This document shows, one piece after another, positions 12,334 through 62,000 of a stretch of 64,000 nucleotides of DNA. Every line of letters begins with the position of its first letter. The stretch's first letter is position 1. Under the pieces are notes generated by a model. The model was not told the origin of the DNA and ran no database searches. It worked only from the letters and a program-made list of their open reading frames with translations. Source of the stretch: Spinacia oleracea (taxonomy: Eukaryota; Streptophyta; Magnoliopsida; Caryophyllales; Amaranthaceae); the NCBI RefSeq assembly GCF_020520425.1, contig NC_079492.1, positions 55,365,042-55,429,041 of the forward strand, given 5' to 3'. A program made the translations under genes and the position numbers.

Positions 12334-15111
12334 TTAAAAATTAAACCCAAACCAGTTAGTCAAGGGGTGACTCCACTCACAACCACTATAATCAGATTGT
12401 TGCGACATATCTTGCGGGGTGTTGAGCCGAGAGCTTCGTCGCAAGAATAAATCAAACCCGTTAGGCGGGTTGTCCTGGGACATGTTGAGCCGATACCTTT
12501 CTCTCCTAAAGACATCAGCCCCATTTGCTGGGTACTGTTGAGACAAGTGCACCTGGGAGGTTCCTGCACCGTTACCCCCATGCTCACTACCTGGGATATT
12601 TTGAGACAGGTACTCTCTGGAACTACTAGGATTGTTCGCCATACTCTTCTGGTACCAAGAAGTCGAACCGAACGTCGTACGTATTAGGGCCTGCACATTT
12701 TACACATTTTACATTCATTATCAAGGTGTACACTAACAACATATGGATTATCTAATGTTACATACCTCCTTTGTAGCTATTTCCTCGGCTACAACCCCAT
12801 CTGCCACCTTCTTACGCTTATCCCCTAACACCGATGTTCGTCTAGTCTTCGCCCTTCCCGTCCGTCGCTTATCCACAGTGGATTTAATGCATTCTTCATC
12901 TTCATCAGCAGGTTGTGCATTTCGTACAAGTTCTCGTTCATTGTTCTCCCTTGGCCGTAATCTACGACGCCCAAATACACTACGCGCTGCAGGATCCCAC
13001 CACGCTTTTGATTCATCACCAAGCTCCCCAGTCTTCCGTATTCCAACTACATCCTCAAGAGTTAGCCGAATTTTATCCGTGGCTTCCTTGTACAATGCTA
13101 ACGTAACGTCATTGTGCATAGCTAGCGTACTCAAATAGCCTTGCCTTTGACCTAGCTCTTTCGCCTTCATCGCCACTGCGGATTCTTCTGGATCATAGTA
13201 GGACACTTTTATGTTCTCATACGAACTCGCGTCTTTCTTCCAGCGATTTAAGATGTACTTCTCTGGGATAAATTCCACATCTTCAGTCGACATGGCACGG
13301 ATTATGTGTCTACATAGTATACCTCTAAACTCAAACAATTTTCACGAGCATGAAAATTCACCCTTAACCTTATCACATGTCACGTCGTAGGTCTTGAATT
13401 TTTTTCGCCAAATTACAGTGGGAAACCTTTCAACAGCTACGTAGAATACTGTTGACCCCAGTGCATAGTCCTTCTTCGTAACATTTGTGTGAAGCAAACC
13501 TTCACACTCTTTCTTCACCTCTGCAAACATAGCATTTGTGTACGACTTCTGGAAAACATACTCCGCTAGTATTGACTTGTTAAACTTGAGAGGTTTTTCC
13601 CTTGTTTTTAAATTATAATCTGCTTCCTCCGCGGCTTTAATCTTCAACGCATGCTCGTACCGTTTCACAAATGTGACCAAGCCACATTGTAAGTTAACAT
13701 GAGTTTTAAAAAACCTATTCATACCTTCGCTCCTCTACGTGGAAGACATCCCAGCCCAAAACGTCCCTCTACAGTAAGCGGGAGCCCATTGAGTCCTTGT
13801 TTCATATTGCTCCTTCATCCAACCTGCTTCCCTTAGACAATATTTGTCCATTATTATACACCAAGCTTCATCAAATTCTTCCTGATGCATCATATCATGG
13901 ACCGCTGTACGTATTAAACGGTCAATATCTTTCCAATTAGCATTGGTTCCCAGGTTCTTCGACGCATTCTGGAGGAGATGCCATAAACAAAATCTGTGCG
14001 GGACACCGGGGAACACAACCTCAACTGCTCTCCCAATTGCCCTACACTGATTTGTACAAATCCCTTTTGGTTTCTTACCCATGCACTTCACAAATTTCTC
14101 AAACACCCATACAAAAGTATCGGTGTCTTCGTGCGTGATTAATGCAGCCCCAAATATTATAGATGATCCGTGATGGTTGATACCGATAAAGGGTGCAAAG
14201 GGCATACGGAACCTACATGGGGAAACAACATTTTAGCACCGAAAAAAATCATTCTTTCATGTTATTCGTTCAAAGAAGTTAAGCAATCTACGATAAATTA
14301 ATTTAGCACAACACCTGTTCACGGAGAAGGTTGTGTCGAATGTTATTACATCTCCAAAATATTTATAGGATTCTCTGCTCCGAGCATCAGACCAAAACGC
14401 ATGCAACAACGTCCCACCGTCATCAACTCGAAGACAACTATAAAAGTCATTATTCAGTTCATGTTGCTTCTTCAAGTAGTCTTGTAGTGCCTTTGCATCT
14501 CCCAGACACCTTGACATACGTCGATCTAAATTTATTGCATTCCTCAAGTCTCGATTGTTGAAGTTCATATTATCGAATCCACCACGCTCAAGAACCTGTG
14601 CACTAAAGTTCGTATTTATGCTTATTCCCGCGTTATCATTGATGATCGCTCTCTCAAACGTTCCTTGATCAATACTTCTATAGTTAACCATTAGATAACT
14701 ACAACCAGGATTGAGATCATGGTTATGCTTCAGGTCGCAACCGAGTATCTCAAATTTTCCACCCTTCAAAACCCCATACACAAACATTTTGCAACCAGTG
14801 ACATTACATCCTTCAGTTTTTGCCGCACCCCCCCCCCCCTTACATTTAAGTCTGATACGACTCGTCATATCTGCTTTCGCCTCTTTTTCTCCTACGCCAC
14901 CTCTACGAACCCCCTTTGCCTTAAACTCTGGCAGCAATTCACTGCTTTTTATGAAAAGCTCGAACCCTTCCCTGTAAGCATATTCATGGCAAAATCTACA
15001 AAAGTCGATCCCTGGTGCAAAGCACATCCCTACTCTAGGTCTTTCTCCTTCTGGTTCACCACTTTGATTCAGGTCTATGGGTAAACTAGGATGCTCTACT
15101 ATGTTTTCCAT
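12334..15111 (-). pseudogene. FAR1/FRS-type (MULE-derived) gene with two in-frame stops
   Basis: Three exons with consistent phases: 15111-14315, 14212-12766 and 12690-12334 (introns 102 and 75 bp, both GT-AG), about 867 codons. Exon 1 encodes the FAR1 DNA-binding domain (the CRFCHEYAYREGF region, a GCNVTGCKM pair, LKHNHDL). Exons 1-2 encode the MULE transposase core (DVITFDTTFSVNR, then MPFAPFIGINHHG, FCLWHLLQN). Exon 2 then carries the SWIM finger (FRGILCRHII) and a basic tail. Two stops break it without shifting frame. TAG at 13737-13735 falls at the usual Gln of the T-Q-R-S-E-x-M-N motif (an expected CAG/CAA). TGA at 13344-13342 replaces the second Cys of the SWIM CxC pair. The family acts in light and development signalling or as transposase; this copy probably makes only truncated protein. 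An alternative upstream ATG is at 15147; a likely acceptor just before 15111 suggests a 5' UTR intron. Confidence 0.8.
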
Positions 15112-15147
15112 CCCGCTGCCACTAAACAAATATAATTTAATATGCAT

Positions 15148-16945
15148 ACTAATTTATTGATATCAATCTTAAATATTCATTTAATCATTACATGCATGCA
15201 GGTACGTCATACTAAATGTTATCTTCAGTAATTAATTAATCATACTAAAATAAAGAACGTTGTCCCCTCTAGTCTGCTATGAATGGCTTCGACAACTCCG
15301 CCACCCAAATTTCAGACATTTGTTATTCCACATTAACCTAATAAGTAATAACCACCCATGATAATTATTACAAATAACTTGAATTACCTCATACTTTATT
15401 CTTATAATAAATAAATAAAACCTAAAACTAGCAGGTCAATTACGAACGAACAAATATTACAGAATTGGAGGAAATTTACCAGCTCTAAGTTGCGGTCGCC
15501 GGATCTTTTGTTGTCGCCGGAATTTGATTGTTACCGGCTCTCAGTTGTGGTCGCCGGAATTTGATTCTCTCTGGTGTCGCGGTACTTCACTTCACAATGA
15601 TTTCCGTAGATGATGCGGTCGATTTTAGGGTTTAGAATGGCAAGAAGGATTACAATTAATTAGTGTAAAATTATAAGGTAACTAATTAGGGGAGATAATT
15701 GTGTTTGAAAATTTTAATTACATTTTTTTTATTGGATAAAGATTGGCGTCAAAGGGAAGGAGTGTGAAAATGGCGCCATTCCACTAATTTATTTCCCCCC
15801 CAAATGCACCATCTTTGCCGCTCATCCCAAATATTTTGGACCAATCAGAACTCAGGGTATGGAACTATTCCCTACCCTGAGTGTATACGTAGCCTTTTCG
15901 GTAATGATTGGGTGTAAGAAAAATGATTGTATGTAAGAGATTATAATAAAAAAAAAAAAAAGAGAAAATAATAAAGAAATAAGGTAAGAGAGAGGAGTGA
16001 TAATGATGGGTGATAAAGGAGGTGAGAGAGTGGGTATATGGGGAAGGGAAAAGAATTAAATAATAGGGGTGGGGAAATTTAGGTGGGAATATGGGTAGAA
16101 TCTTTAGGTATTTTGGTAATTAGATAGAAATGTAAGGGTATTTTAAGATAAAATGTATGTCCAAAAATAGAAACGGATACAACAAAAAGAAACGCTTAAA
16201 AAGGAAACGGATACAACTTAAAGGAACGGAGGGAGTAGAAAAATACACACTTAATTTTATTTTTTAAACAAAAAATAAAAATAATAAGGATATGGAGGGA
16301 AGAGGGTGAGTTGTTGAATACATAATTAAAATAAAAAACACAATTTTCCACGGTAGAAGCATTAGTTATTGCATACTTCGTATATTTGTAGGTAAAAGTA
16401 GGACAATTTGGATATTTAAATTGTTTGATAAGGTATGTTGGGGAAAAAAATAGATGATTACTATGTATATAGGAAAGTGTCAAAGTAGGCGCAACATTTT
16501 GGAAGATGCTAAAAAAAAAACAAGCACTATATTATGGGAAGGAGGGTGGATAATCTGTATATACTTCCACCGCAATCTTTTAGTTGAAACGTTTCTGTTT
16601 TGAGTTATTTATATGTAGTTGCAACTTGCAACCTTTCTTTTTAGTAACCCTATCCACACGACTTTGCCAAACTACCCTCATCCATATCCAACATCATACA
16701 CTTTTCTCTAACTATGTATAAAAATAGAGGCATGAATGCAATTTACTAAGTATTCATTTGCAATGCAAAGAATAGAGTGGAAAGTAAAGGTTGAAACAAA
16801 AACAGAACATAAGAAGTAAGTTTTATATTTATGTCAAAAAACTTAAAGAGGCTTCATTTAGTTCAAGACCAGTTTCGATTCTTTCGATTAGGTTTAGAAT
16901 GAATGCTAAAAACATGTGTCAATTAGTGTGGTTAATATAAGTTAA
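15148..16945. other. Upstream flank of the FRS gene; hairpin and MITE end
   Basis: At 15480-15600 TCGCCGGA words recur several times and may be the FRS 5' UTR. A perfect 10-bp inverted repeat, actcagggta (15850-15859) and taccctgagt (15873-15882), has a 13-nt loop. A lone Stowaway-type end (GGAACGGAGGGAG before TA) finishes at 16235, and its partner end is missing. No gene is supported; the AT-rich frame at 16196-16483 is accidental. Confidence 0.45.
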
Positions 16946-18455: not shown

Positions 18456-18847
18456 TGTTGAAGATGGCTGCAAGATGTAAAGAAGGCCCTAAAAGTATAG
18501 CCCATTCTTGCAGCCCATCAAAGTGCAAGCAAACAGCAGCAGGTGCAAGCAAACAGCAGCAGCAAAGAATCAGTGACATCATTGTCACATGATCCCAAAT
18601 ATTTCATTCTCAGTATAATGTTGTTTTGTCTTTTCCTTAGGAAATTTCTAGGAAAGTGAGCCAATGATTAGCTGTCCTCTTGTGTGAGAATTTGGTGGCT
18701 GAAACCCTAAAGTGGCCTCACTATATAAACATGTATTGTACACACTCAAACCATGAATGAGAATGAGAGAAATATTTGGTTGAAAGAATTCTTGCATTAA
18801 CAGTTTATTGTTCACATTGTTGTTTGTTCATTTGCTGTTAATCATCA
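18456..18847 (+). repeat. 5' LTR of the Copia element
   Basis: 392 bp, TGTTGAAG...ATCATCA. A TATA box (CTATATAAAC, 18721-18730) should drive the genomic transcript. A CAGCAGCAGG-type tandem word lies near its start. Confidence 0.95.
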
Positions 18848-18859
18848 TGGTATCAGAGC
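18848..18859 (+). promoter_or_regulatory. Primer-binding site (initiator tRNA-Met)
   Basis: TGGTATCAGAGC starts directly after the 5' LTR; it is the standard Copia site complementary to the 3' end of initiator methionine tRNA. Confidence 0.93.
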
Positions 18860-18989
18860 TACGGTTCACCAAAATCCAATCTTTCAACCTATCTTGGTAA
18901 GGAAAACACAGAAATCCTCAAATACAGTGAGTTTATTCCTCAAAAATCTCATCTTTTAATTCTTTAAAGTAGAAAATTCTGGTTCAGCT

Positions 18990-21900
18990 ATGGTTACAAT
19001 AGATCCAACAAGCCATTTGTATCTTCACCCTTCTGATGGCACTCAGTTTGCAAACATAGAAAAGCTCCAAGGATCTACAAACTACAGATCTTGGAAGCGT
19101 TCTATGGAAATTGCTTTGGCTTCAAAACGAAAGCTTGGATTTGTTACAGGTGCTTATAAGAAAGATGAAGACCCAACAAAGGCTGAACATTGGGAAACTT
19201 GCAACAACACAGTTATCTCTTGGATCATTGGGACTGTATCTGAGTCCATAAAAAAGTCCATCATGTTTCTGAATAGCTCTGCACAAATATGGAAGCAGTT
19301 AGAACAAAGGTTGTCTCTGACCAATGGTTCGAGAAAATACAAGCTCAACAGGGACTTGTATGAAACCAAACAGATGGGAAAACCCATCAGCGATTACTAT
19401 ACAGTCATGAGTGGTTTGTGGGAAGAGCTGGAATCTCTCAATGATTTCCCACCTATCACTACTATGACTGCAGAGATAAACTCATTCATACAAGCCCTGT
19501 CAAGGCAACAAGAAGAGCAGAAACTCTTCCAGTTTCTAAATGGTGTAGATGAACAATATGCACCTCAGAGAAGTCAGCTTCTCATGATGACTCCATTGCC
19601 TTCTGTAGAAACATCCTGTAGCTGTCTTCAACAAGAAGAGTCACAGAGGGATATCTTGGGACACATCAAGGAAGAAGGTGAAACTCTTGCCATGTATAGC
19701 AAGGGAAATGAAATGACATGTACAGCTTGTGGGAAAACTGGACACATGAGTGACAAGTGTTGGAGTGTAGTTGGCTATCCTAGCTGGCATCCTAAAGGAA
19801 AGAAAACTGGAAAAGCACCTTACAAAGGAAAAGGGAAGATGCAAGGTGGTGGACAACAAAAATGGAACAAATGGAAGCAAGGGAATGGCATGAAACTTGC
19901 TGGAAATGCTCATGGAAATAGTGAAACTGGTTCCAGTGGAGGTAACAAATCACAGATAAACACTCAACAGTTAGAGCGGCTGCTTAGAATGCTACCTGTA
20001 CCCTCCAAGGAAGGTGGATCAGACACAGATGAGGAAATGGACATGAACTATTCAGGTATGGTGTCCTGTTATTTTGCTGACTCCTTAGGGTTAGATTGGA
20101 TAATTGATTCTGGAGCATCCAATCACATGACTGGAAACTTTAACACCTTGATTAATCCTGTTAAGAGTCAGAACAGTCCATATATTAACCTTCCTACTGG
20201 TGAAACTTCTAGTATATCTCATTTTGGAAATGTTAAACTTGAAAGTGATATAGAACTAAAAAAGGTTCTGTATGTTCCTGCATTTAAACACAACTTGTTG
20301 TCTGTGAATAAGTTGGCTGAGGATGCAAACTGTAAAGTGAATTTCTACTCTGGTTATTGTGTCATTGAGGATTCAACCAGCAAAGCTGTAAGAGGAGTTG
20401 GTAGAGCTTTGAATGGCTTATACTATCTGATAAATGAACCACTGGTAAAGACTCTTCAGAAATTGAAGAGTGGAACTGTGAATATAACAGAAATGAAATC
20501 AAATGAAAAGCTAGCTGGAAATGTGACAAGTGTGTCAAGTGTACCAACAGTGGTGAAAGATGTACCCACTTTGAGTGCACCAGTATTATGGCATCACAGA
20601 CTAGGCCATGCTCCTATGAAGAAAATTGAGAAAATTGAAGGAATTGGAGATGTAAAGGGGAATAACAGTGAAGTGTGTTTGAGCTGTCCTTTGGCAAAGT
20701 TCACCAAACTTCCCTATACACAGAGTAAATCTAGGGCTGTTGATGCATTTGATCTTGTGCACATAGACATATGGGGTTCTTACAAGGTGAACACAAGAGG
20801 AAATCACAGATACTTCATGACTATAGTTGATGACCATACCAGAGTCACATGGGTTCACCTGCTGAAAGCCAAATCAGATGCATATCAAGCCATCTCCACC
20901 TTTGTGAAAATGGCAGAAACACAGCATGAGAAGAAGGTTAAAGTCATCAGGTCAGACAATGCACTTGAATTTGATGATAGCAAGTGCAGACCATTCTTTG
21001 ATCAACTAGGTGTCATACACCAGACATCTTGTGTCAACAGACCACAACAGAATGGTCGAGTTGAGAGAAAACACAGGAACATACTTGAGATGTCTAGAGC
21101 AATAAGGTTTCACTCTGGTTTACCTTTGAAATTTTGGGGTGATTGTGTACTTGCTGCAGTTCACATTACCAACAGACTACCCTCTTCTGTGATACAGAAC
21201 AAGACTCCCTATGAGATTTTGTACAACAAAAAACCCAAGTACAAACACCTTAAAGCATTTGGGTGTCTAGCAATTGCAAGCAATCCTAACAACAACAAAG
21301 ACAAGTTTGAAGCCAGAGGAGTGCCTTGCATTTTCATTGGATATCCTATTACTCAAAAGGGATACAAGCTGTATAATCTGCTCACTCAAACAGTCTTTGT
21401 CTCCAGAGATGTGAGATTCTATGAGAGTATATTTCCCTATCACATTTTCCACTCAACCTCTGCTGATGCAAGCACATGCAGCAACACAAACAATCAACCA
21501 TCACTGTGGATAGGTGATGATCCCATACAAAGTGATGACACTGTTGATGACACACAAGCAAGCAGTACTCCCATTGTGACCTCCCCTGAACAAAGGAGAT
21601 CAACTAGATCACACAAAACACCAGCTTGGCACTCAGATTATCAAGTATCTCATGCCACAGTAACTGAGCCTTCTGTTGTGCATTCAGTGGCACAAACTAG
21701 AGCTACCCCGCAATTTTTTTGCTTCATGACACACATAATTCAACCTAAAGTGCTTGATCCTAAGCATTTTAAACATGTTGTTCACAGTGAGAAATGGAGA
21801 CATGCTATGAATGATGAGTTGGATGCTTTGGAAAGCAACAATACATGGGAAATAACTGATCTCCCCCCTGGGAAGCAAGCCATAGGATGTAAATGGCTAT

Positions 21901-23339
21901 ACAAAACTAAATATCACTCTGATGGAGGTCTTGACAGAAATAAGTCCAGATTAGTTGTGTTGGGAAATAGGCAGAGATATGGAATTGACTATGAAGGAAC
22001 ATTTGCACCAGTGGAAAAACTTTCCACTGTGAGGTCTCTTTTGGCTGTTGCATCTCTCAGTAACTGGTTCATACACCAAATGGATGTAAAGAATGCATTC
22101 TTACATGGTGATTTGAAAGAAACTGTGTACATGAAATTTCCACCAGGTTACCTAGGGTATGGCTTCAGATTCAGTGATCAGTTTAAGGGGGAGCAGTCCA
22201 CTCATCACTCTACAAAGGTATGCAAGTTGTTGAAATCCTTGTATGGTCTCAAACAAGCACCCAGGCAATGGTTTGCAAAATTAAGTTCTGCTCTGAAGGC
22301 AAATGGTTTCACTCAGTCCAAGAGTGACTACTCATTGTTCATCAAAGAAAGCACTGAAGACTTTGTTGGTATACTGGTGTATGTGGATGATTTGATTCTA
22401 GCTAGCAACAATTTGGATCTCATAGATCAAGCTAAAAAATTCCTCTCCTCTCAGTTCCATATGAAAGACATGGGTGAGTTGAGATATTTTTTGGGAATTG
22501 AAGTTGACAGGACTGCTCAAGGCATATTTCTCTCCCAAAAGAAATATGTATGTGATCTGCTAGAAGAATATGGACTCAGTCAATGTAGGGCATTGAAGCT
22601 TCCCATGGATAGTCACACCAAACTCACACCTGACAGTGGTGAACCACTCCCCAATCCTGAAGTATATCAGCAACTGGTAGGCAAACTCATCTACCTAACT
22701 CTCACAAGACCTGATATTGCATACACAGTGCACATTCTTAGCCAATTCATGCACAACCCCACTTGTGTACATCAACAAGCAGCACTGAGAGTACTCAGAT
22801 ACTTGTCTGGTTCAACTGATCAGGGCATTCTCCTTGCTAGTCACTCTGCAGCTAAGTTGACTGCTTATTGTGACAGTGACTGGGCTGGTTGTCCATCCAC
22901 CAGAAGATCCACTACTGGCTACTGCATTCTCCTTGGTGATTCTCCTATAAGTTGGAAATCCAAAAAACAATCTGTGGTTGCAAGATCTACTGCTGAAGCT
23001 GAGTATAGAGCTATGGCTATGACTGTGTGTGAAGTAATGTGGCTAACTCAACTCCTTAAAGAATTGGGACTAAAATCTCTAAAGTCTACATCAATCTTGT
23101 GTGACAATCAAGCAGCTTTGTCTATTGCAGCCAATCCAGTCCATCATGAAAAGACAAAACATATGGAGATTGACTGTCATTTCATTAGGGACAAGGTGCA
23201 TGAAGGAATCATCTCTCCAACCTATGTCTCTACTCAGAATCAGCTTGCAGATGTGTTCACTAAGATCTTATCCACTAAACAGCATCAAGATCTTCTTTCC
23301 AAGCTGGGAGTGATCAATCACTCCTCACTCTCAGCTTGA
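18990..23339 (+). CDS. Copia gag-pol polyprotein, 1449 residues
   Basis: One intact frame in Copia order. Gag occupies about residues 1-240 with a CX2CX4HX4C zinc knuckle from residue 244. The aspartic protease site DSGA starts at residue 373, and the GAG-pre-integrase HHRLGH motif follows near 535. The integrase D593, D656 and E692 show the D,D-35-E spacing. Reverse transcriptase has [10 protein letters not shown] near 1030 and YVDD with its aspartates at 1133-1134. RNase H motifs ([15 protein letters not shown]) lie near the end. It packages, reverse-transcribes and integrates the element RNA. No stops, frameshifts or lost catalytic residues are visible, so the copy could be active. The start is the first ATG after the primer site with a full Gag; the stop lies just before the polypurine tract. 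Confidence 0.96.
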
Positions 23340-23346
23340 GGGGGAG
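23337..23346 (+). promoter_or_regulatory. Polypurine tract
   Basis: TGAGGGGGAG immediately before the 3' LTR; it overlaps the polyprotein stop codon. Confidence 0.85.
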
Positions 23347-23738
23347 TGTTGAAGATGGCTGCAAGATGTAAAGAAGGCCCTAAAAGTATAGCCCATTCTT
23401 GCAGCCCATCAAAGTGCAAGCAAACAGCAGCAGGTGCAAGCAAACAACAGCAGCAAAGAATCAGTGACATCATTGTCACATGATCCCAAATATTTCATTC
23501 TCAGTACAATGTTGTTTTGTCTTTTCCTTAGGAAATTTCTAGGAAAGTGAGCCAATGATTAGCTGTCCTCTTGTGTGAGAATTTGGTGGCCGAAACCCTA
23601 AAGTGGCCTCACTATATAAACATGTATTGTACACACTCAAACCATGAATGAGAATGAGAGAAATATTTGGTTGAAAGAATTCTTGCATTAACAGTTTATT
23701 GTTCACATTGTTGTTTGTTCATTTGCTGTTAATCATCA
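23347..23738 (+). repeat. 3' LTR of the Copia element
   Basis: 392 bp, 389 identical to the 5' LTR; the three differences are all transitions. Confidence 0.95.
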
Positions 23739-29388: not shown

Positions 29389-32300
29389 ATGCAGACAAGG
29401 TATATGGAAAGATCGAATAGTATGAGTGGTGGAAGAGAGAAGAGAACTCTGGATTCGAGCTCAACTGCTGATGAAGATAGTCAACCTGATCGCAAAAGAC
29501 CTGCTTTAGCTAGGTTCTTTCCTTTTCTCTCTCTTTCTTACTCTAATTTGATTCTTGACTTTGTTTGATTTACTGGGTATTGGATGATTTTTTCTGGGTA
29601 TTTGATGAACTTCTTTTGGTATGGGATGAATTTTTCTAGGTATTTGATGAACTTTTCTGGGTATTGGATGATTTTTTCTGGGTGTCGGTTAATTTTTATC
29701 AATATTTTTTAGAAGTATTAAAAGTTGAATCTTTCCTCATGTGAGTATTTTTAATTTAAAATTTGATTTTTTTTTTGTTGAGTATTGAGCTATCTCTTGT
29801 TATTTTTGGCATACTTTTTTGGGCCTTTTGGATGTGCAAGAGTTCTGTTAGAAGTGGTCAATCTTTTTTCTTTTTTCTTTTTTCTTTTGGTGGGTTGGTG
29901 TAGTGGATATTAGTTGAAGTTTTGAGGTTCCTATAGTTACTTAAGTTCATTAGTTCTGAATAGATAGAATAGGGAGTAGTGATAATAAGGTGAATAGAAC
30001 ACGACCTCAACTCCTCAAGTGAAATAAATTTCTTAATCAACTAAAGTCTTGTTCGTCGTCGATGCGAGTTTTGAGTTCTTCAGTTAATGTGGGAACTAGA
30101 AAGAGTGGTTCTGTTGTTAGTTTTCATAATTAACACGGCTGGCGTCGAATATGACTCATTTAAATTCATCATACAACTTGTGGAATTTCTAAAATGAAAA
30201 CAAACAGCAGTATGAACAGGAATTCGTTGACAAAGCTTAAGTACCCTAATGATTTGGTGGAGACTTATGTTTTACTTTGAGTGGAGAGGTTTTGAAACAA
30301 CAGACATTATAATGGGTGCCATTTTGCAGTGTAGCATGTTTTGTAGCTAGAGAATTTTACATTGTCTTTGTTGTTAATGATTTGGTGTCGCTTCTATACG
30401 TGTGTGTGTTTTTTCTTAAGTTCACAGTACTAACTACTAAGTGATTTTTCACTCCATTACAGTGTGATTGTCGAAGCCCTGAAGGTGGATAGTCTGCAGA
30501 GACTCTGCTCATCCTTGGAACCCATTCTTCGGAGAGTTGTAAGATAATCAAACTTATGTATGATTCTTTTCTTTCTGTAAGGGACATCCTTGGATGATTA
30601 GTTTGAAATAATAAAAAAAACTCCACAAATATGATTTTAATTATGGAAATAAGCTATCTTCAATTTGATATCCTTATTCTTTCTAAGGTGGGTGGGTGCA
30701 CTGGGTAGGGTAGTGCATATTTCTTGACCTCAGTAAAACCTACCTGGTTACTTGGGTGTTCTACTTTATGGAAAATGTCGCTTCGTACTTCTCTTATGTC
30801 CGGTCTTCGTGAACAATGAACAGGTTAGTGAGGAAGTAGAACGTGCTTTGGCAAAGTTGGGGCCTGCTAGGCTTGTTGGAAATGGAAGGTAAATTTCACT
30901 TCTTTTTCTGGATGTTAAAGAGTATTTCCTCATTTTTGCTATAGTTCTTGCATTTTAGTTGTACCTTGGATATAGTTAAAGGGTTTTAAGGTGTATACCT
31001 ACCTACATTGCTGCATGAAAGATAGTTCTTTGAAAATATCAACTTCTATTGATAAGAGTCAAAGAGGTCTTTCAAGTTTTGGCATGCTTTAACACTTGCA
31101 AATGTAATGTTACGCTGTGAAATATCATCATTGATTTCGGCTTATTAAAAAGCCCACAATCTAATCAAAATTGTAGTCTGATTATTATTTGAAAGAACAG
31201 TAATTAAGAAGGCTGAACTGTGTTCTAAATGTAGTAGGTCTTCTCCCAAGCGGATAGAAGCACGTGATGGAAGAAATTTGCAGCTTCATTTTAAAACTAG
31301 GCTTTCTTTACCCCTTTTTACCGGAGGAAAAGTAGAAGGTGAGCAAGGAGCTGCGATCCACATCGTGTTACTTGATGCAAATAGTGGACAACTTGTCACA
31401 ACAGGTCCAGAATCAGCTGCAAAACTGGATATTGTTGTGCTCGAAGGTGATTTCAACGATGAAGATGATGCTGACTGGACTGAAGAAGATTTCGACAGTC
31501 ATGTAGTGAAAGAGCGTGAAGGAAAGAGGCCCCTTTTAACTGGAGATGTGCAAGTGACAATGAAAGAAGGTGTAGGAACTCTTGGAGAACTGACATTCAC
31601 TGATAATTCAAGCTGGATTAGAAGCAGACAGTTCAGATTAGGTCTGAAGGTTGTCTCAGGTTATGGTGAAGGTGTTCGTATTCGTGAAGCAAAAACAGAA
31701 GCTTTCACTGTCAAAGATCATAGAGGGGAATGTGAGTCAAATTTCTCAAACCAATGTTTTTTTTATAAGTTTTATCACATTTTTTACAAGTCATCTTATA
31801 TATCTTTGCCTTTGTGGTGTTTGTCTTCTGTAGTGTACAAAAAACATTACCCTCCTGCATTACATGATGAAGTTTGGAGATTAGAAAAGATTGGAAAAGA
31901 CGGGGCTTTTCACAAGAGACTGAATAAAGCCGGCATAGTTAGTGTTGAGGATTTCTTGCGATTTGTTGTCAGAGATCCACAACGGTTGCGAAATGTAAGA
32001 ATGTATATTTTTGCTGTTTGATTGATATATATGAGGATATCTAATCTAATGTCGGGGAATTGACTAACATATGTGAACCCTTTTATAGATACTTGGAAGT
32101 GGCATGTCAAACAAGATGTGGGATGCACTCGTGGAGCACGCAAAAACGTGTGTACTTAGTGGAAAGGTTTTTATCTACTATCCTGATGGTCCACAAGGGG
32201 TTGGTGTAATTTTCAACAGTATTTATGAGTTTAGTGGCTTATTTGCTGGTGGCCAATACTACTCAACTGATTCTCTTTCAGACACACAGAAGGTGAGTGT

Positions 32301-37143: not shown

Positions 37144-38065
37144 CGCTCCATGTGCCCATAACCCATCCTATATTTTGCGCCAACATATTCATTACTTGTT
37201 CATTTCCAATTACTCCGTAAATCGATGACCATTTATCCCCTCTATTTTTTAACTAATTCTCACCGTTCCTTTTTAATTGTTACTTTTGAACCATCAATGT
37301 AGTTTTACATTGATAACTTAAATTACTGCGTTAAAATATTGATCATTAAAAGTATGAGAAAATTACAATATTTTCGAAAGAAATTAAAAAGAAATACGAA
37401 GTACTCCGTATTAACTTCAAGAGAATTTCAATAATAACATTGTATTGAGATTGATATATTTAATAATGATGTTAGTTATAACCCAATAAAACGGAAAATG
37501 ATTTTCGCACACCAAAAAGCGATATCGACACTCACTATGATAGCACATGATAATGTGCTATACTCACATACAGGTGTGCCAATATCAATAAAGTGGTGTG
37601 TCAAAACCAGTTTCCAACATAAAACAGCTATGAAGTAGTTTTTCTCTTCCTAAATTAACATAGTTTCTAAATGCAGAAAATATTTTCTTTTTGCAAAAAT
37701 AAAAAGGTCAAAACTGCCCTTTATCTTGATTAAAAAAAATAATAATAAAAAAAATCCTTAGTTTTCATTTATACTGTAGATTCCACTTGAAAGAGTAAAA
37801 ATGTGAAATCATTGACTACAGCTTGTACTAACCCTTTAATCCTTTCATGGCAACCATTAATATACCTCTCTTCTTCTACCCGAAAGGCTGAAACACCATG
37901 TCCATGGAAACCAATATCTTCTACCCTTATCCTCTCTGCCATGTTTTAACACAACAAAGACTTTCGAATTGGAAACCAGAGTTTTTCCATATGGCCAGAA
38001 TAAATTTTTTTGCAAAAAATTGAGTTGTTAAAATCAATTTCTGTTGAGGCTTATATTATATGCAA
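37144..38065. other. Intergenic with a small palindromic element
   Basis: At about 37495-37610 the ends TTTTCGCACACCA and TGGTGTGTCAAAA are near-complementary, and the centre holds a hairpin (TAGCACAT...ATGTGCTA), so it may be a short MITE. The remainder is non-coding. Confidence 0.35.
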
Positions 38066-38413
38066 CTAGTCTTATATGCACGCGATGCGTGCGAGATTAT
38101 ATGCTTATTTCAATAAAATGCATAATAACCAGCAACATTGTACTTAAGCAGCTTTCTAAATCCAAATTAAGTTCATCCTGGAAATGCACAGATCAATTCA
38201 ATTATTACCTGTTCAAAAATTTCTTTTAGTTCAGCAATCAGTACAGAATTAATTACAGTCACAAACTGATTGACCATGAAACATCAACGGATCAAGATAT
38301 ACACCAGACCTGAAGATGCCATGGCCTATTTATTCGGTTCACATTACAATCATATTTGATAGGAAATAAAACATCTCATATTCGTAATACAGGAGTCAGG
38401 AGGGTAAGTGCGT

Positions 38414-38720
38414 TTATTCGCAGGTGCATGGGTCGCAGCTGCAATCATCTCCACATCCGCACCCCGTCCTTCCATACATCCTGCAAAATGAATTCGAACT
38501 ATGTCAGACTGACATATATTAATCATGCAAATACAATATGTTTTCTAGCATAATCTAATTGTCTTAGAAGAACAATCACTATCCACAACTCAAACTTAGT
38601 AGCTAACCAAACATAGATTGTAAGCACTTTATTATGCTAGAAGAAATCTTCAAGAAGGGAATATATATGTTGCAGTTGCAGTCATCACAGCTGCAGCTGT
38701 CGCCAAATCCATAGTTCCAT
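38414..38720 (-). pseudogene. Metallothionein-like gene remnant (captured)
   Basis: The second exon (38480-38414, after TTTTGCAG) encodes GMYGRTGCGCGDDCSCDPCTCE and a stop; the CGCG-x2-CSCDPCTC pattern is the C-terminal metal-binding block of plant type 1/2 metallothioneins. An upstream exon (38720-38669) reads GDSCSCDDCNCN in one frame, but the ATG at 38720 lies in another, so one base too many separates start and cysteines. Where a GT donor is expected the sequence is ATATAT, as if a G were lost. A TATA box sits about 110 bp upstream. A captured, decayed metallothionein is most likely; an unusual transcript using another start is not excluded. Confidence 0.5.
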
Positions 38721-38830
38721 TTTCTTTCTTAGAGATTGCAGATTACAATTTGGAAAAGAGGTTGCAAGACATACATAGAATGATATAAGAGAAAGGTAGT
38801 TTAGATGATCTAGAATGATGAACATTGACA

Positions 38831-38841
38831 CCTATATATAG
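38831..38841 (-). promoter_or_regulatory. TATA box before the metallothionein-like remnant
   Basis: CTATATATAGG on the minus strand, about 110 bp before the ATG at 38720. It suggests the captured segment included a promoter. Confidence 0.45.
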
Positions 38842-39065
38842 AATGTAGGAGGTAACATAACTTGAAATCTTTCTTTCAACTGAACTAATTAAATTCAAAT
38901 TACAATTAAAAGAAAACGATATGAAGAAAACAGTAAAAGGTAAGGGGACTTACATGGGGATTAACGGTTGCTCAAACACTGATAGTGGTGTCTCCGGACT
39001 CCGGCTAAACTATCTAGTGAGAACACAACTTATTTTTTTAAATACGGTAGAGATTTATTTAGAAA

Positions 39066-39210
39066 ATGACAATGAAGAAAGCAAGAGTAGAGCATACCTG
39101 AAATTTCAAATTATTGATCGAAATAGACAATGAGGAAAGCAAGAGTAGCCGGCAACCGGCATACATACCTGAAAACCCAAATAGAAATGAGGAAAGCAAG
39201 AGTAGCCGAA
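39066..39210. repeat. Three short tandem units, about 58 bp each
   Basis: aatga(a/g)gaaagcaagagtag occurs at 39071, 39129 and 39186 with a variable remainder. Each unit also contains an AG/GTATG-like donor word on the minus strand, so they may be duplicated exon edges. Confidence 0.6.
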
Positions 39211-39692
39211 AATCCGTATTGGTGCAACCTGACGACGGTGAGAAATAAAAATGGGGAAATTAGTTCATTAAAATTGAGAAAAATGAAGCTCATTTACAGG
39301 TTTAATTCCAAAATCATTTAAGTTTAATAAATAGAAATAAAATTAAAATAAACTTCTTAATCCTCCCCAAAATAATTTATCTCTATCTGATTTAAAAAAT
39401 CAAACCTTTTGGGGCGGTGAACATGAATATAGAATCTGATTCACATTCTCCTTTTCTGTTAAATAGAAAAATAATACATTTCATCAACCTTTTTTCAGGC
39501 CAATTTATGGGTCTAAATATATACAAAACCCCAGAAAATTGATTTGGAAATTTTCTACAAAAATCAAAGAGAAACAGCTTTTCTGCTCAAACATACAAAA
39601 TCCAGAATTTCAAAAGTTGTAATTAAGCATTAATTATCCAAAAGAAAGAATATTAAGCATTAAATATCCAAAAAACCAGCTAAAGATCTCAC

Positions 39693-39742
39693 CTTTAGGA
39701 GGTTCTGACACTGAATCCACCACCTCGTTTCTACTTTTTGCT
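39693..39742 (-). other. Isolated exon-like segment inside the Helitron
   Basis: A 50-nt open segment reading AKSRNEVVDSVSEPPK lies between a perfect acceptor (TTTTTTACAG) and donor (AAAG/GTGAG) on the minus strand. The parent gene is not recognised. It may belong to the acidic fragment or to another captured gene. Confidence 0.35.
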
Positions 39743-40445
39743 CTGTAAAAAAATGCATAACAAATTTTTATCAGCAATTACACAAATCCTATAAACTCAA
39801 ATTTCTTAATTTCCACCCGAAGTTCATCTTCTTTGATAATAAATCAAAATTCATACTAAAAATGAAGGAAACTAAAACCAAAATCTGATGAAACAACTAA
39901 CCTCAGACAGAAGGCAATATCAAGTTCCATGCGCTGAGAAAATAAGAATTTAAATGTATGTCCTTCTGTTCCCTCACACATAAAATGAAGCTGAAATTAC
40001 ATACATGATGATTACGAAGCACATGGACAGTTTGGGAAGCAAGCCAATACACTCCCAAAGAGTGCCCAAATCTGGAATGAACAGCCTAAGAAACACCATA
40101 TGAGCTGCACCTGAAACCAAAATAATTTCTGTTTGATAAATGTAGAGACTTTGGATTTTACAATTCATCAAACAAACATGTCTTAAAGAAGGTGATGAGG
40201 ATCAAATTATATGACCACCTAACACAACACCACCAACAACAACAAACCATATGACCACCTAACACCAACACCAACCAACACCAAATTAATTGAATAAAAA
40301 AACATAGTTCCGAATTTAATCATACTAAATATAGTAAACAACATCCAACTAACAACATAAGCCACAAAGACAATGATCGATGTATACGGGATTTGATCTT
40401 ACTATCTTAGTCTTGGGTTCGTGAAACATCAGTAATAGTAATACA

Positions 40446-40727
40446 CGCGATGGAATAAACCCATTACAAACAGCAAGGCCAGGGAAAATTTGAAGGGATT
40501 TTCCACAAAGCTTATAACCCTGAAAAGCAGTAACAGGCATTGAGCTAACACTAACCGGAATTGACCCATTTAAATTATTTTATCACACATTAAATTGGTC
40601 CAATTGCAGCTTCAATTCTGGCATCTCACTTAGATTATTTTCAACCTACTCAAATTCCTCAAAGTACCAGGAACTTCACTACAATAATTATTGTTTGCCT
40701 AATTAAGTGGAACCAAATTCTTCAACT
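40446..40727 (-). pseudogene. LRR receptor-like kinase fragment (captured)
   Basis: Starting right after a TTTTTTTTCAG acceptor, the translation gives LKNLVPLN, then EVPGTLRNLSRLK, then SEMPELKLQLDQFNV, NNLNGSIPVSVSSMPVTAF and GYKLCGKSLQIFPGLAVCNG. This is the end of the LRR region and the F-x-G-x-x-LCGK-L cap of RLK902/RKL1-type receptor kinases. At least three stops and a frame change interrupt it, and no kinase domain follows. It is a captured and decayed fragment. Confidence 0.65.
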
Positions 40728-40917
40728 CTGAAAAAAAAAGTCAGGGATACACATTAAAGCATCATATTTTTCTATAATCAAGTCAAATTAGTCTGAAAAA
40801 TCCAGAAATTTCAAGCTAGAATAATCCAATTAAATTTCCATAAGTTCAGCAATGAGTATGGATAAGAAAATCAACTAATAAAATCAATCAACAAAATTAG
40901 AAAGAGAAAAGAGATAC

Positions 40918-41236
40918 CTACAAATTCTTGAGATAAATTTTTGGCAACCGGCGGATTAACAACTTCCACTGCCTTATCCGATGGTGGATTTGCTACCGGT
41001 GGTTTCTCCTCTTCAGTTTTAACCTCCTGATCTTTTTTTCTCCTCCTCCACCTCCGCTTTCTTCTCTTCCTCCGCCACCTTCTCCTCCTTTTCCCCCTCC
41101 TCCACCTTCTTTTCCTCCTCTACGGGCGGCGCTGGCGGATCGTCAAACCATACCTTTGATATGCGAGAAAACACTCTGCTTCTCCTCCCCTAATGTCGCA
41201 AACGCCGCACCACCAGTTTTCACCTTTTCGAGAAAA
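40918..41236 (-). pseudogene. Acidic K/E-rich gene fragment (captured)
   Basis: Three frame segments join into one sensible sequence. FLEKVKTGGAAFATLGEEKQ comes first, then VWFDDPPAPPVEEEKK with a long E/K run, then KPPVANPPSDKAVEVVNPPV, ending at a TAG/GTATC donor (40918/40917). An extra base near 41160 and an extra A in the A-run (T-run 41032-41039 on plus) shift the frame. No start codon is in frame. The protein family is not recognised. The retained donor indicates capture of genomic DNA with introns rather than a cDNA. Confidence 0.45.
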
Positions 41237-42315
41237 TTAGACCGTTTTTAGAAAATCGGGGATCGATTAAAACCCCTAGAAAAATTGAATGAACTCCGGT
41301 GAAGAAAGAAAAGGGGAAAAGAAGGAGAGCGCCGGGCTACGGATAACTCTACCGCCGGAGTTCGCGATAGAGCAATGGTTGTTCTCAGTGTTGAGAGGGT
41401 ATTCGGCCGTCAAAGTTCAAGATTCCAGTTTCCTTTCTCTCTCCTCTGCACGTTTTCATTCTCTCTTGATTTAGGGTTTTGGAACAATGGCCAGTAAGGC
41501 GTCAAAGGGACACGAAATGTGAAAGATGTGGAGGGTATTGTTGTAAATTCCAAAGGGGACACGAAAAGTGTAATTACTGAAATAACCTCAGCTGTTCCTT
41601 TATATAATAGAGATTAGGCTTAATTAGTTTGGGCTTTTGAGCTCACATTGTATTTAGAATCATGTAGCTAGTAATGCCGTGGGATTTTGTGTATAGATTT
41701 CTAGGTTGTATATAATACCTGATGATAAGAAATACAAACCGTGAAAACACATTAACCTAATTTGTCAATTTTCCAATCAACTAGGTGTCATTAAAATGAA
41801 GATCGTGTTCTACTATTCTAGCTTTATGGGTACAGCAAAGGGGCGAAGTTGATATTTTTTTTACTCCGTTATTTTCTTTTGGGCTTTTTAGTCATTTTTA
41901 ATTTTGTGTTAAGAAATTAATTTCTGCATTTAACAACACCCTAAATTAATGTGCAAATGAAAAAACAATAATTATTTAGGAACAAAGGGAGTACATCGAA
42001 AAGAAATCTTTTGTTAATAAAATTTTGTTCCTGAAAATTACTTTTAGTGTCTTTTTTCCCCATATGATTTGGAAAGAATTTATTTGTTAGGTTAATAGCA
42101 AGGAGATTTTTTTCATAAAAATTAGGGTTTCTTAAATTTTTATTTTTATTTTTTTATCCTAACTTATCGCTCATTGTTTTTAGAAAACTAACATGAAAAG
42201 TTTGAGAGTTTTGCTCAAGTTACCTCCAGAAATTCAAAAAACTAACATCAATGTCAATGTTACATGAATGATGCTCTCTCTAACTCCACCCTCAAATATG
42301 TTTTACAAGTATTAC

Positions 42316-42429
42316 CAATTTCTGGAGAGAACATCATCCATTTAACATTGACACATAGACTTGTCTTGCCAACAATTTCTGGAGAGAACATCATCCATTT
42401 AACATTGACACATAGACTTGTCTTGCCAA
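42316..42429. repeat. Perfect 57-bp tandem duplication
   Basis: Two identical adjacent copies of a 57-bp unit. A recent slippage or unequal exchange is likely. Confidence 0.9.
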
Positions 42430-59018: not shown

Positions 59019-62000
59019 CAATGTAGCATGTCACAATTGGTCTTAGTGTGTTACACGTTACCTAACTACCTACATGCTACAACATTTTTAACTTTAATTA
59101 TTAAAAAAAAAAAAAAAAAGAAAAAGATAGAAAATGTCACGTGAAATCAGAAAGGAATCAGGTACTTTGTACCTTATAACTTATCTTTTCTATAAATTTT
59201 GTAATCAACCTCTTTCAATTACCCATGATATAATCACTTTCCCAATTCAAGAACCCTCTTTCAATACAGACTCTTCTCCTTCCTCTGGCGATTGAAAAAA
59301 AAATTCCCCCTTCAATTCCTTAATCCCCCATCTATAAAATGATGACCTTGCATCTCCAATTTCTCACACCTCAACCAAAAACTTCTTTAATTCTCATAAT
59401 CTTCCAATTTCAATGGCTTCACCAAACTCAGCCATGCTCAACCTCCAAAAAAATTCAACACCAAGAAGGCCAAGTCCTACCCAATTTTCAAGCTATGATG
59501 AAAAACCCTTATGGAACCATGTCACGGTCATCGGGAACCCGACTAGTGGTGGTAACAGAAAATGGACCTGAACTATTGTCACAAATTAGTGACAGGTTCA
59601 TACACAAAAGTGAAAAGCCATCTTTTGGGTTTATCTGGGAATGGTGTTGAAGGATGCAAGACAATCTCGGATCAAGTTAAAGCTCAACTACAAAGGGAGC
59701 ATGACAAAGCTGAGAATTTGAATGCTAGGAAAGCCATGGACACAGAGGAAGCTCGAATATGCAACACTGCCTCCTGGTTCAGATTTAAAACAACAAAAAA
59801 AGAGCAAAAAAATACATTGGAGGTATGTTTTAATGCTGCTGGCAGATATGAGTTAGATAAAGAATGTGCTCGTATGTTTTATGCCTTTGCCCTTCCATTT
59901 TCACTTGTTAAAAATCCGTATTTTCGTCAATTTGTAAGCAAATTGGCAAACAGTAAGTGTGTTGGGTATGTTCCTCCTACATACAACAGGATGAGGCTTT
60001 CTTTACTTGAGCAAGAGAAAGCACATGTGGATGCCCTTCTTCAGCCTTTTCGGGATTCTTGGAAGAAAAAGGAAGTATCTTTGTGTTCGGATGGATGGAC
60101 CGATAGGCAGAAGAGACCTCTCATCAATGTCATGGCTGCATCAGGATATGGCTCTATGTTTCTTAAATGTTTCGACGCAAGTGGGAATACGAAGGACGCG
60201 GAGTATGTAGCTAGTCTATTTCAAGAGGTCATTGATAAGGAAGGGGCTCACAATGTTGTTCAGATTATCACTGACAATGCTGGAAATTTTAAGGCAGCAG
60301 GTTTGGCACTAGAAACGAAATACCCTCATCTTTTTTGGACACCATGTGTCGTGCACTCTGTGAATTTGGCCCTCAAGGCAATATGTGAACCACCTGTGAA
60401 CTCAACCCAATATGACCAATGTAAGTGGATTTCCTCATTAATGTCTGACTGCAATGCAATTGTCAATTTTGTTTTAAACCATGGGAAAGCACTTGATATT
60501 TTCCATAGTTATTCTAAGCATATGTTGGTTAAAGTAGCTGAAACCCGATTTGCTTCACACTTTATCATGGCTGAGCGTCTATTTTTAACTAAAAGTGCTT
60601 TAGAGAAAATGGTCTTGAATCCTGATTGGAAAACGTTTAGGAAAACGGCAGTAGAGGAGAAAGCTGACCATGTTAAAGAATGTGTTATTTCCGACAGATG
60701 GTGGGACAAGGTTGAGTATGTTTTAAGTTTTACAAACCCAATTAACAATATGATTAGGAAAGGTGATTTGGATGCCCCATGTTTGCATTTGATTTATGAC
60801 ATGTGGGATTGTATGATCGAACAAGTGAGGGAGAAAGTGTTTGAACATGAGGGTTTAGATGCCATTACTGGAAAATCTTCATTTTTTGATGTGATTCAAG
60901 GGGTTTTAGAATCTAGGTGGAACAAGAGCAACACTCCACTTCACTCCACTTCACTGTATGGCTCATTACTTAGTCCCTAAATATTATAGTGAGTCGTGGC
61001 TGGAAGGTGGTTCAGGAATTGTTCCAAGGGTGGCACCCAATGTAAACCAAGAAGTCTCTTTGAATAGAGACAAATGCTTTAAGAAAATGTATACAAACCC
61101 GGACGACCTTAAGAAAATCTATGCTGAGTACGGTCAGTTTTCGGGGACCTTGGGTTTTTTTAGTGAAGCCCACGTGATGGAAGCAAGGGATACTGAAGAC
61201 CCCTTGAGTTGGTGGGCCAGTTATGGTTCTTCAACACCCTTACTGCAAGCTTTAGCATTCAAATTGCTGTCCCAACCTGCTTCTTCTTCTTGCTGTGAAA
61301 GAAATTGGAGTTCTTTCTCCAATATCCAAAGCATAAAGAGGAATAGATTGTTTTCCAGTAGAGCTGAAGCGCTTGTGTACGTCCATACCAATCTGAGAAT
61401 GATTTTTAAGAAGAAAGAGGAGTACAAAACCGGGCCATCGAGCTACTGGGATGTGGGTAAGTTTTCAGATAAATATTTTAGTTTTGTATTTTTTCTTTTT
61501 ATTTTTTAATTACTGATTCTGTTTTTATGTATTTTTAAGGTGGAGATGATCTTCTGGTTGATAATGAGTATAATGAAGCATTTGAGAATCTATTTCTGGA
61601 TGACCCTGATATTGAAGCAACCTTTTTCAATGACGAAGAAGAGGTTTGATCGTTGGAGGCTTGGTTCTGAGGTTGAAGTTGAGATGCTGACTTGCTGAGC
61701 AGTGAAGGAAGTTGGAGCAGGGAAGCTGCTTATGCTATTTTCTGAATTTTAACTCTTTATTTTATGTTTTATTTTTCTGTTGGATTGAATATTTGGGATA
61801 TTGAAGTGTTTTACTCCAAATATGGTATTTGGAGGTTTTTTTTCTAAAAGTTTGAAGGCATGTTATGGAATCCACTATTTTGATTAATATGATTGGAATA
61901 TTTTGTGACTTTTCAATTTAAAATATACTTAGTATATTTCAGTCTAATGTACTTAAATTAAAATAATGGCCCGTGTCCCCGAGTCCATATCCATATTTTG

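Follow-up and report, generated by a model that had tools for sequence, protein, structure and literature searches.

A 64-kb window on contig C6 of the spinach (Spinacia oleracea) genome, by which we mean the whole stretch of DNA analyzed here (C6:55365042-55429041), contains a minus-strand element of 3,548 bp running from window position 41613 to 38066. This is almost certainly a non-autonomous plant Helitron that belongs to a large family and is copied by the rolling-circle mode with Rep/helicase from other Helitrons of the same genome. The element has Helitron ends, is inserted at A^T without target duplication, has a recent second copy and an empty site elsewhere in the assembly (894,210,420 bases in 242 contigs were searched), carries four sense gene fragments whose parents are found in the same assembly, and shares parts of this cargo with sister elements. 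A gene-capturing Helitron had been proposed in the original prediction, which was made from the letters alone, and is supported by the second copy, the empty site, the parents and the family. The element and its two termini are listed below, with positions in the window.

38066 to 41613, minus strand: non-autonomous Helitron of 3,548 bp, delimited by its ends, a second full copy (C2:101038678-101042228) and the empty site.
41259 to 41613, minus strand: 5′-terminal region from TC, common to other family members; two places in L024 match it from the first base.
38066 to 38102, minus strand: 3′-terminus with hairpin and CTAG, recognized by a 19-mer with 999 exact copies in the assembly.

Read on the minus strand, the element opens with TCTCTATTATATAAAGGAACAG after a host A and closes with GCACGCATCGCGTGCATATAAGACTAG before a host T. 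Its 5′-end, TCTCTATTATATAAAGG, starts with TC at 41613 next to the host A at 41614, and its 3′-end reads GCACGC-ATC-GCGTGC-ATATAAGA-CTAG, with CTAG at 38066 and the host T at 38065. Both are the borders that had been predicted, namely TC after A and a hairpin plus CTAG before T. In the available part of one source, Helitron hallmarks are a 5′ TC and a 3′ CTRR (PMC2575219), and the TC and CTAG found here conform to them and are identical in the second copy. The hairpin, located 8 nt 5′ of CTAG, consists of a perfect 6-bp stem and a 3-nt loop. In a scripted scan, the pattern of hairpin plus CTRRT occurs in the window only once, at this very 3′-end, and the two Helitron ends are not paired as inverted repeats among the 25 longest of the 36 inverted pairs in view. 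The palindrome near the 3′-end of Helitrons is often 16–20 bp long; in the spinach element the hairpin spans 15 nt, half of it inside the recurring 19-mer. Rep/helicase had been predicted to be lacking, and indeed none was detected in a six-frame Pfam search of the element up to E 1 with stops read as X, which returned a single sub-cut-off row of another family (E 0.75).

A search for other copies sharing both ends, a check suggested with the prediction, found a second complete copy on C2 with the same ends, the whole interior and 99.5% identity. The C6 and C2 copies differ by 14 substitutions (8 transitions and 6 transversions) and 5 gap positions in three gaps, and their 1.5-kb flanks are unrelated (the best match between them being 29 bp, E 0.001). 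At a substitution rate of 7e-9 per site per year, the two copies would have diverged about 0.28 million years ago. Both are inserted between A and T (borders A-TC...CTAG-T) without target duplication. When the joined flanks of both copies were searched, those of C6 matched C4:162386180-162386487 with 99% over 307 bases, and the empty site there, between C4:162386480 and 162386481, reads GCCTAA^TTGCATA unbroken, again A^T with no target duplication. None of the 40 candidates scored of 2,569 represented an empty site of the C2 copy. On C4, a 289-bp element (a Stowaway-like miniature inverted-repeat transposable element), bounded by CTCCCTC inverted ends and a TA duplication, lies 7 bp beyond the empty site, and a further insertion of ~0.8 kb follows beyond this element. 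The presence of real exons, introns and a TATA box might speak for a degenerate host exon cluster or host pseudogene caught between chance Helitron-like ends, but the same 3,548-bp arrangement recurs on C2 with the same ends and unrelated flanks, an empty site exists, and the four unrelated parents lie elsewhere, on C3/C6, C2, C6:118.7 Mb and C1, so that none of the fragments is a host exon at its original position. This explanation is refuted by the second copy together with the empty site, and its probability is practically nil.

The place of insertion is flanked by inverted arms, which offer another potential mobile unit.

37659 to 41940, no strand assigned: repeat with inverted arms holding the Helitron, ~734 bp without it, delimited by the arms and by the end of the C4 homology at both of them.

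The arms (37663–37719 and 41881–41937) are 57 nt long, 75% complementary and outside the Helitron. The flanking repeat comprises 37659–38065 and 41614–41940, and a Helitron-free copy of it is present at C4:162386153-162388025 (L042 1654–3526). Since the C4 homology stops at the inverted arms on both sides, the insertion target is itself a repeat, of which the C4 place represents a further copy. If a Pack-MULE or other inverted-repeat transposon were concerned, with the arm-bearing repeat as its mobile unit, the arms on either side of the element and the limits of the C4 homology would be accounted for; however, the C4 repeat copy has no gene pieces, whereas the gene-piece copy on C2 has no repeat. 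The gene pieces therefore travel with the Helitron ends, the arm-bearing repeat is ruled out as their carrier, and such a transposon is extremely improbable.

As for the cargo of the Helitron, three gene fragments had been predicted, resembling a metallothionein, a leucine-rich repeat (LRR) receptor kinase and an acidic K/E-rich protein. All three are real, and the suggested search for parent genes succeeded for each of them in the same assembly, but four fragments are recognized in total, a piece of a TBL gene having been overlooked. The captured pieces, all on the minus strand, and the inner stretches between them are as follows.

38213 to 38859, minus strand: metallothionein capture, starting shortly upstream of the TATA box and extending to the 3′ untranslated region; L013 (C3:19073930-19074579) 85.5%, L016 79%.
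38414 to 38480, minus strand: coding part of metallothionein exon 2 with AG acceptor and stop codon, from parent comparison.
38667 to 38720, minus strand: metallothionein exon 1 remnant, with an 8-bp gap after ATGG; the GT donor and two Cys codons are lost.
38833 to 38840, minus strand: TATATATA, the metallothionein TATA box, conserved in L013, L016 and L018.
38860 to 39385, minus strand: inner stretch common to other Helitrons, with a threefold repeat, from sequence comparison.
39386 to 39865, minus strand: TBL capture, comprising two exons (2 and 3) and portions of three introns; parent C1:126341647-126342113 (L017), 85.5%.
39406 to 39455, minus strand: TBL exon 3 remnant with intact AG/GT borders, from parent comparison.
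39693 to 39742, minus strand: TBL exon 2 remnant with intact AG/GT borders, one base short of the parent, from parent comparison.
39866 to 40316, minus strand: inner stretch common to other Helitrons (L009, L011, L012 and L027).
40317 to 40748, minus strand: LRR receptor kinase capture, covering the last part of exon 1 and the first part of intron 1, with deletions and stops; parent C2:113551363-113551798 (L023), 81%.
40934 to 41248, minus strand: MCTP-like capture, comprising the final part of the first C2 domain and the acidic linker, interrupted by frameshifts and deletions; parent C6:118697795-118698215 (L036), in pieces of 75% and 91%.

The metallothionein capture begins ~20 bp above the TATA box, spans the intron and reaches the 3′ untranslated region; an intact 42-aa metallothionein over two exons can be encoded at C3:19.07 Mb and C6:106.86 Mb, both loci being embedded in duplicated surroundings. 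Its 8-bp gap and lost donor are also found in L010, the same place as the sister element L033, and both defects are therefore older than the split of these elements. The LRR piece covers the last LRRs of exon 1 in a parent on C2 (113.55 Mb); this parent has its LRR and kinase exons open and presumably belongs to class III and is of the RLK902 type. At C1:126.34 Mb, PMR5N (E 4.9e-20) and PC-Esterase (E 2.3e-86) are encoded in an open frame directly downstream, and we take this PMR5/PC-esterase parent gene to be a TBL, the product of which would be a cell-wall acyltransferase-like protein. The stretch 41248–40934 has three candidate places in the assembly, namely the two Helitron copies and the parent locus on C6; there the open frame starts with MADDSNGRKLVVEMCNAKNLMPKDGQGTASAFVMVDFDGQ and encodes a C2 domain (E 3.3e-19) and then an acidic linker, and the gene is presumably MCTP/QUIRKY-like. 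The predicted K/E-rich piece is accordingly a genuine capture, the identity of which is the first C2 domain end and acidic linker of this gene. Pfam LRR models did not match the LRR piece, the metallothionein peptides were under the Pfam cut-off, and the K/E piece gave two sub-cut-off Pfam rows (E 5.9 and 6.7) and no PDB match up to E 1. The LRR piece matched in PDB with E 1e-12 in frames that had been bridged by hand, the value being summed over numerous weak repeats (0.13 for the best individual stretch); without bridging, a sub-frame matched with 2.2e-8. The first LRR sub-frame had one unrelated match, and searching whole frames of the element against PDB gave no match up to E 0.1. Protein-family searches by themselves did not prove the nature of the pieces; only the parent gene settled the label.

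The TATA box of the metallothionein is retained, as had been stated, and the claim that splice sites are kept holds for both TBL exons and the metallothionein acceptor but not for the metallothionein donor, which is lost, nor for an acceptor in the LRR piece, since TTTTTTTTTCAG is coding sequence for E-F-F-S in the parent. Where the MCTP piece ends, a host splice donor was likewise rejected, the parent frame continuing through this point. The two inner stretches, which have splice-site-like borders, are possibly further captured exons. No Pfam gene was found in L014 or L027, and L020 contains broken GT47 pieces.

All four pieces are sense relative to the element, in line with the single orientation that had been predicted; one given direction for four pieces has a chance of 1/16, so this is at most suggestive. 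All four are also decayed, and the longest sense open reading frame starting from ATG is 64 aa, a length reached by 164 of 300 first-order random sequences. With its longest sense frame of chance length, the element is unlikely to specify a chimeric protein, while a chimeric RNA, as had been suggested, is possible. The element probably makes no protein, and low-level or spliced RNA and small interfering RNA may possibly arise from it. It is quite improbable that the element and its sisters would together give rise to small RNAs or chimeric spliced transcripts that feed back on all four parents simultaneously, with the metallothionein TATA box as promoter. A bacterial promoter scan gave 9 hits against 11.6 expected and a terminator scan 2 against 2.3 expected; neither Rfam, at its gathering threshold, nor a tRNA scan gave a match in the window.

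The family to which the element belongs is large. The 3′-terminal 19-mer has 503 forward and 496 reverse exact copies in the assembly, the next base being T in 966 of the 999, whereas the reversed-pattern control has 0, and the 3′-end pattern gave 0 matches in viral and bacterial collections. In the available portions of two surveys, one reports a cluster of Helitrons for beet but none for Spinacia (PMC7840529) and the other counts 1,297 spinach Helitrons in a draft genome (PMC6337768); the 999 exact 3′-ends are at odds with the former, as far as its available portion goes, and in line with the latter. In L024 (C4:148.73 Mb), two family 5′-ends, at 2001 and 4090, are in opposite orientation, face to face and ~2.1 kb apart. 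Helitron_like_N (PF14214) has at least 154 matches in the assembly, with 150 of 353 candidates scored, and 0 in 14 control genomes; many of these matches are in open frames of ~1,000 aa or longer, the longest being 1,459. One such locus, L041, has Helitron_like_N at C1:101210777 followed by a PIF1 helicase (E 6e-71) within C1:101211118-101217000, and its 3′-end has 2 changes in the last 27 nt relative to the element. The sister element L033 terminates in L041-type sequence. From these ends we infer that a Helitron of the L041 type may supply the transposase to the element.

The divergence K from the parents is 0.114 (L013) and 0.099 (L016) for the metallothionein, 0.112 for the LRR piece, 0.088 for the TBL piece, and 0.125 and 0.095 for the MCTP-like pieces, and K from the remote metallothionein locus L018 is 0.171; at the rate given above, the parent distances would correspond to roughly 6–9 million years. 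Sister elements are closer: K is 0.040 to L009 over the LRR end, TBL piece and body, and 0.049 to L033 over the body and metallothionein, with 0.031 for its LRR end. L015, which holds the spacer and LRR piece and has a Helitron 3′-end downstream, shows K of 0.113. As the sisters are closer than the parents, most of the cargo would already have been joined more than a few million years ago, with a recent spread of the complete version. The proposed course of events is thus as follows. The element would move by rolling-circle (peel-and-paste) transposition using Rep/helicase of other Helitrons in the genome; gene pieces would have been gained stepwise, as reading overran the 3′-terminus and ended at a new one; coding capacity would have been lost before the sister elements diverged; and the 3.5-kb version, once assembled, would have copied itself to at least two sites.

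The sister L033 (C6:52438389-52442151), which carries the LRR end, the body and a metallothionein bearing the identical 8-bp gap and donor loss, is informative on the capture step. Directly after the metallothionein it has TATAATCTCGCACGCATCGC, a cut inner 3′-terminus (L033 8223–8243), and a complete terminus follows 0.4 kb on (L033 8609–8644). This double terminus is possibly a frozen step of read-through, for which the Helraiser model, in the available part of its description, predicts that reading past a broken terminus leaves such an inner end (PMC4778049). Alternatively, the cargo may have been built by nesting of Helitrons with later loss of inner termini, a mechanism proposed for multi-terminus maize Helitrons in the available text of PMC3288121. 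The cut terminus of L033 and the scattering of cargo parts over several sister elements are compatible with nesting, but the position of that terminus, directly after the metallothionein, is what one read-through step would leave; nesting in place of read-through is a real possibility though short of probable, and the two can act together. The 9.5–10 kb surrounding the parents of the metallothionein and LRR pieces contained no clear Helitron end (the best end-like matches being 20–28 bp, E 0.26 and 0.75).

Several observations tell against a Helitron built by read-through capture and mobilized by an L041-type helper. First, the hairpin folds no better than its shuffles (z −1.23; 24 of 200 equally or more stable), and the case for a Helitron therefore rests on the family and the insertion site. 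Second, an empty AT site, for which a search in relatives had been suggested, was found on C4 in the same assembly, but it sits in a repeat copy and not at the orthologous locus. Third, the inner stretches 38860–39385 and 39866–40316 have no assigned parent gene. Fourth, the order of capture cannot be read from the divergence, all four pieces having K within 0.088–0.125. Fifth, the inner terminus of L033 may itself stem from nested Helitrons, as in the maize proposal. Finally, L040, the other Rep locus of the two whose 3′ side was examined, is without a matching end, and as only one of the two has such an end, similarity of the ends is the sole basis for naming the helper.

Other features of the window lie outside the Helitron and its flanking repeat. 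An exact 57-bp tandem duplication occurs nearby at 42316–42429, with an inverted partial copy at 42252–42280, and ~6 kb to the left of the Helitron is an exon of a calmodulin-binding protein gene (31182–32021, plus strand), which we take to be CBP60-like. An apparently young Copia retrotransposon (18456–23738, plus strand) has 392-bp direct repeats (18456–18847 and 23347–23738) that are 99.2% identical, and a single 1,459-aa open frame with gag, integrase and RVT_2 domains. At 59556–61509 (plus strand), DUF659 and a hAT dimerisation domain are encoded in two overlapping frames, which represent a hAT-like transposase, possibly frameshifted, and a MULE transposase domain at 13735–14232 (minus strand), with other open pieces in 12748–15153, represents an interrupted Mutator-like element.

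The Helitron features examined in the spinach element are all present except those of autonomy. It resembles the gene-capturing Helitrons of maize and Brassica napus in its TC/CTAG ends, 3′ hairpin, A^T insertion, intron-bearing pieces of multiple genes and lack of transposase, and differs from them in its host and the particular four genes. That multi-gene capture is known for Helitrons, as had been stated, is borne out by B. napus, where, according to the available part of the report, 35.25% of gene-capturing Helitrons carry two or more pieces; captures there have a mean of 230 bp and a range of 92–1270 bp (PMC11986588), and the metallothionein capture of ~650 bp, nearly a whole gene, exceeds this mean while falling inside the range. 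Like Helraiser/Helibat of bat, the spinach sister L033 has a cut inner and a complete outer 3′-end beside captured DNA, but Helraiser has been tested in cells whereas the spinach element is known from sequence alone. Pack-TYPE elements have terminal inverted repeats and target duplications; the spinach element carries and shuffles gene pieces as they (including Pack-MULEs) do, but its Helitron unit has neither of these features. A literature search on Helitron and metallothionein, mostly at the level of listings, returned no description of this cargo; in the available part of PMC4528327 the word occurs in the title of a cited work on a mouse gene.

The kind of element is thus ordinary and already known, and it is the host and the combination of cargo that are particular. 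It is an unusually complete single case, in which both copies, the empty site, the parents of the four identified pieces and the sisters sharing parts of the cargo occur within one genome, and the build-up of a multi-gene Helitron is therefore traceable.

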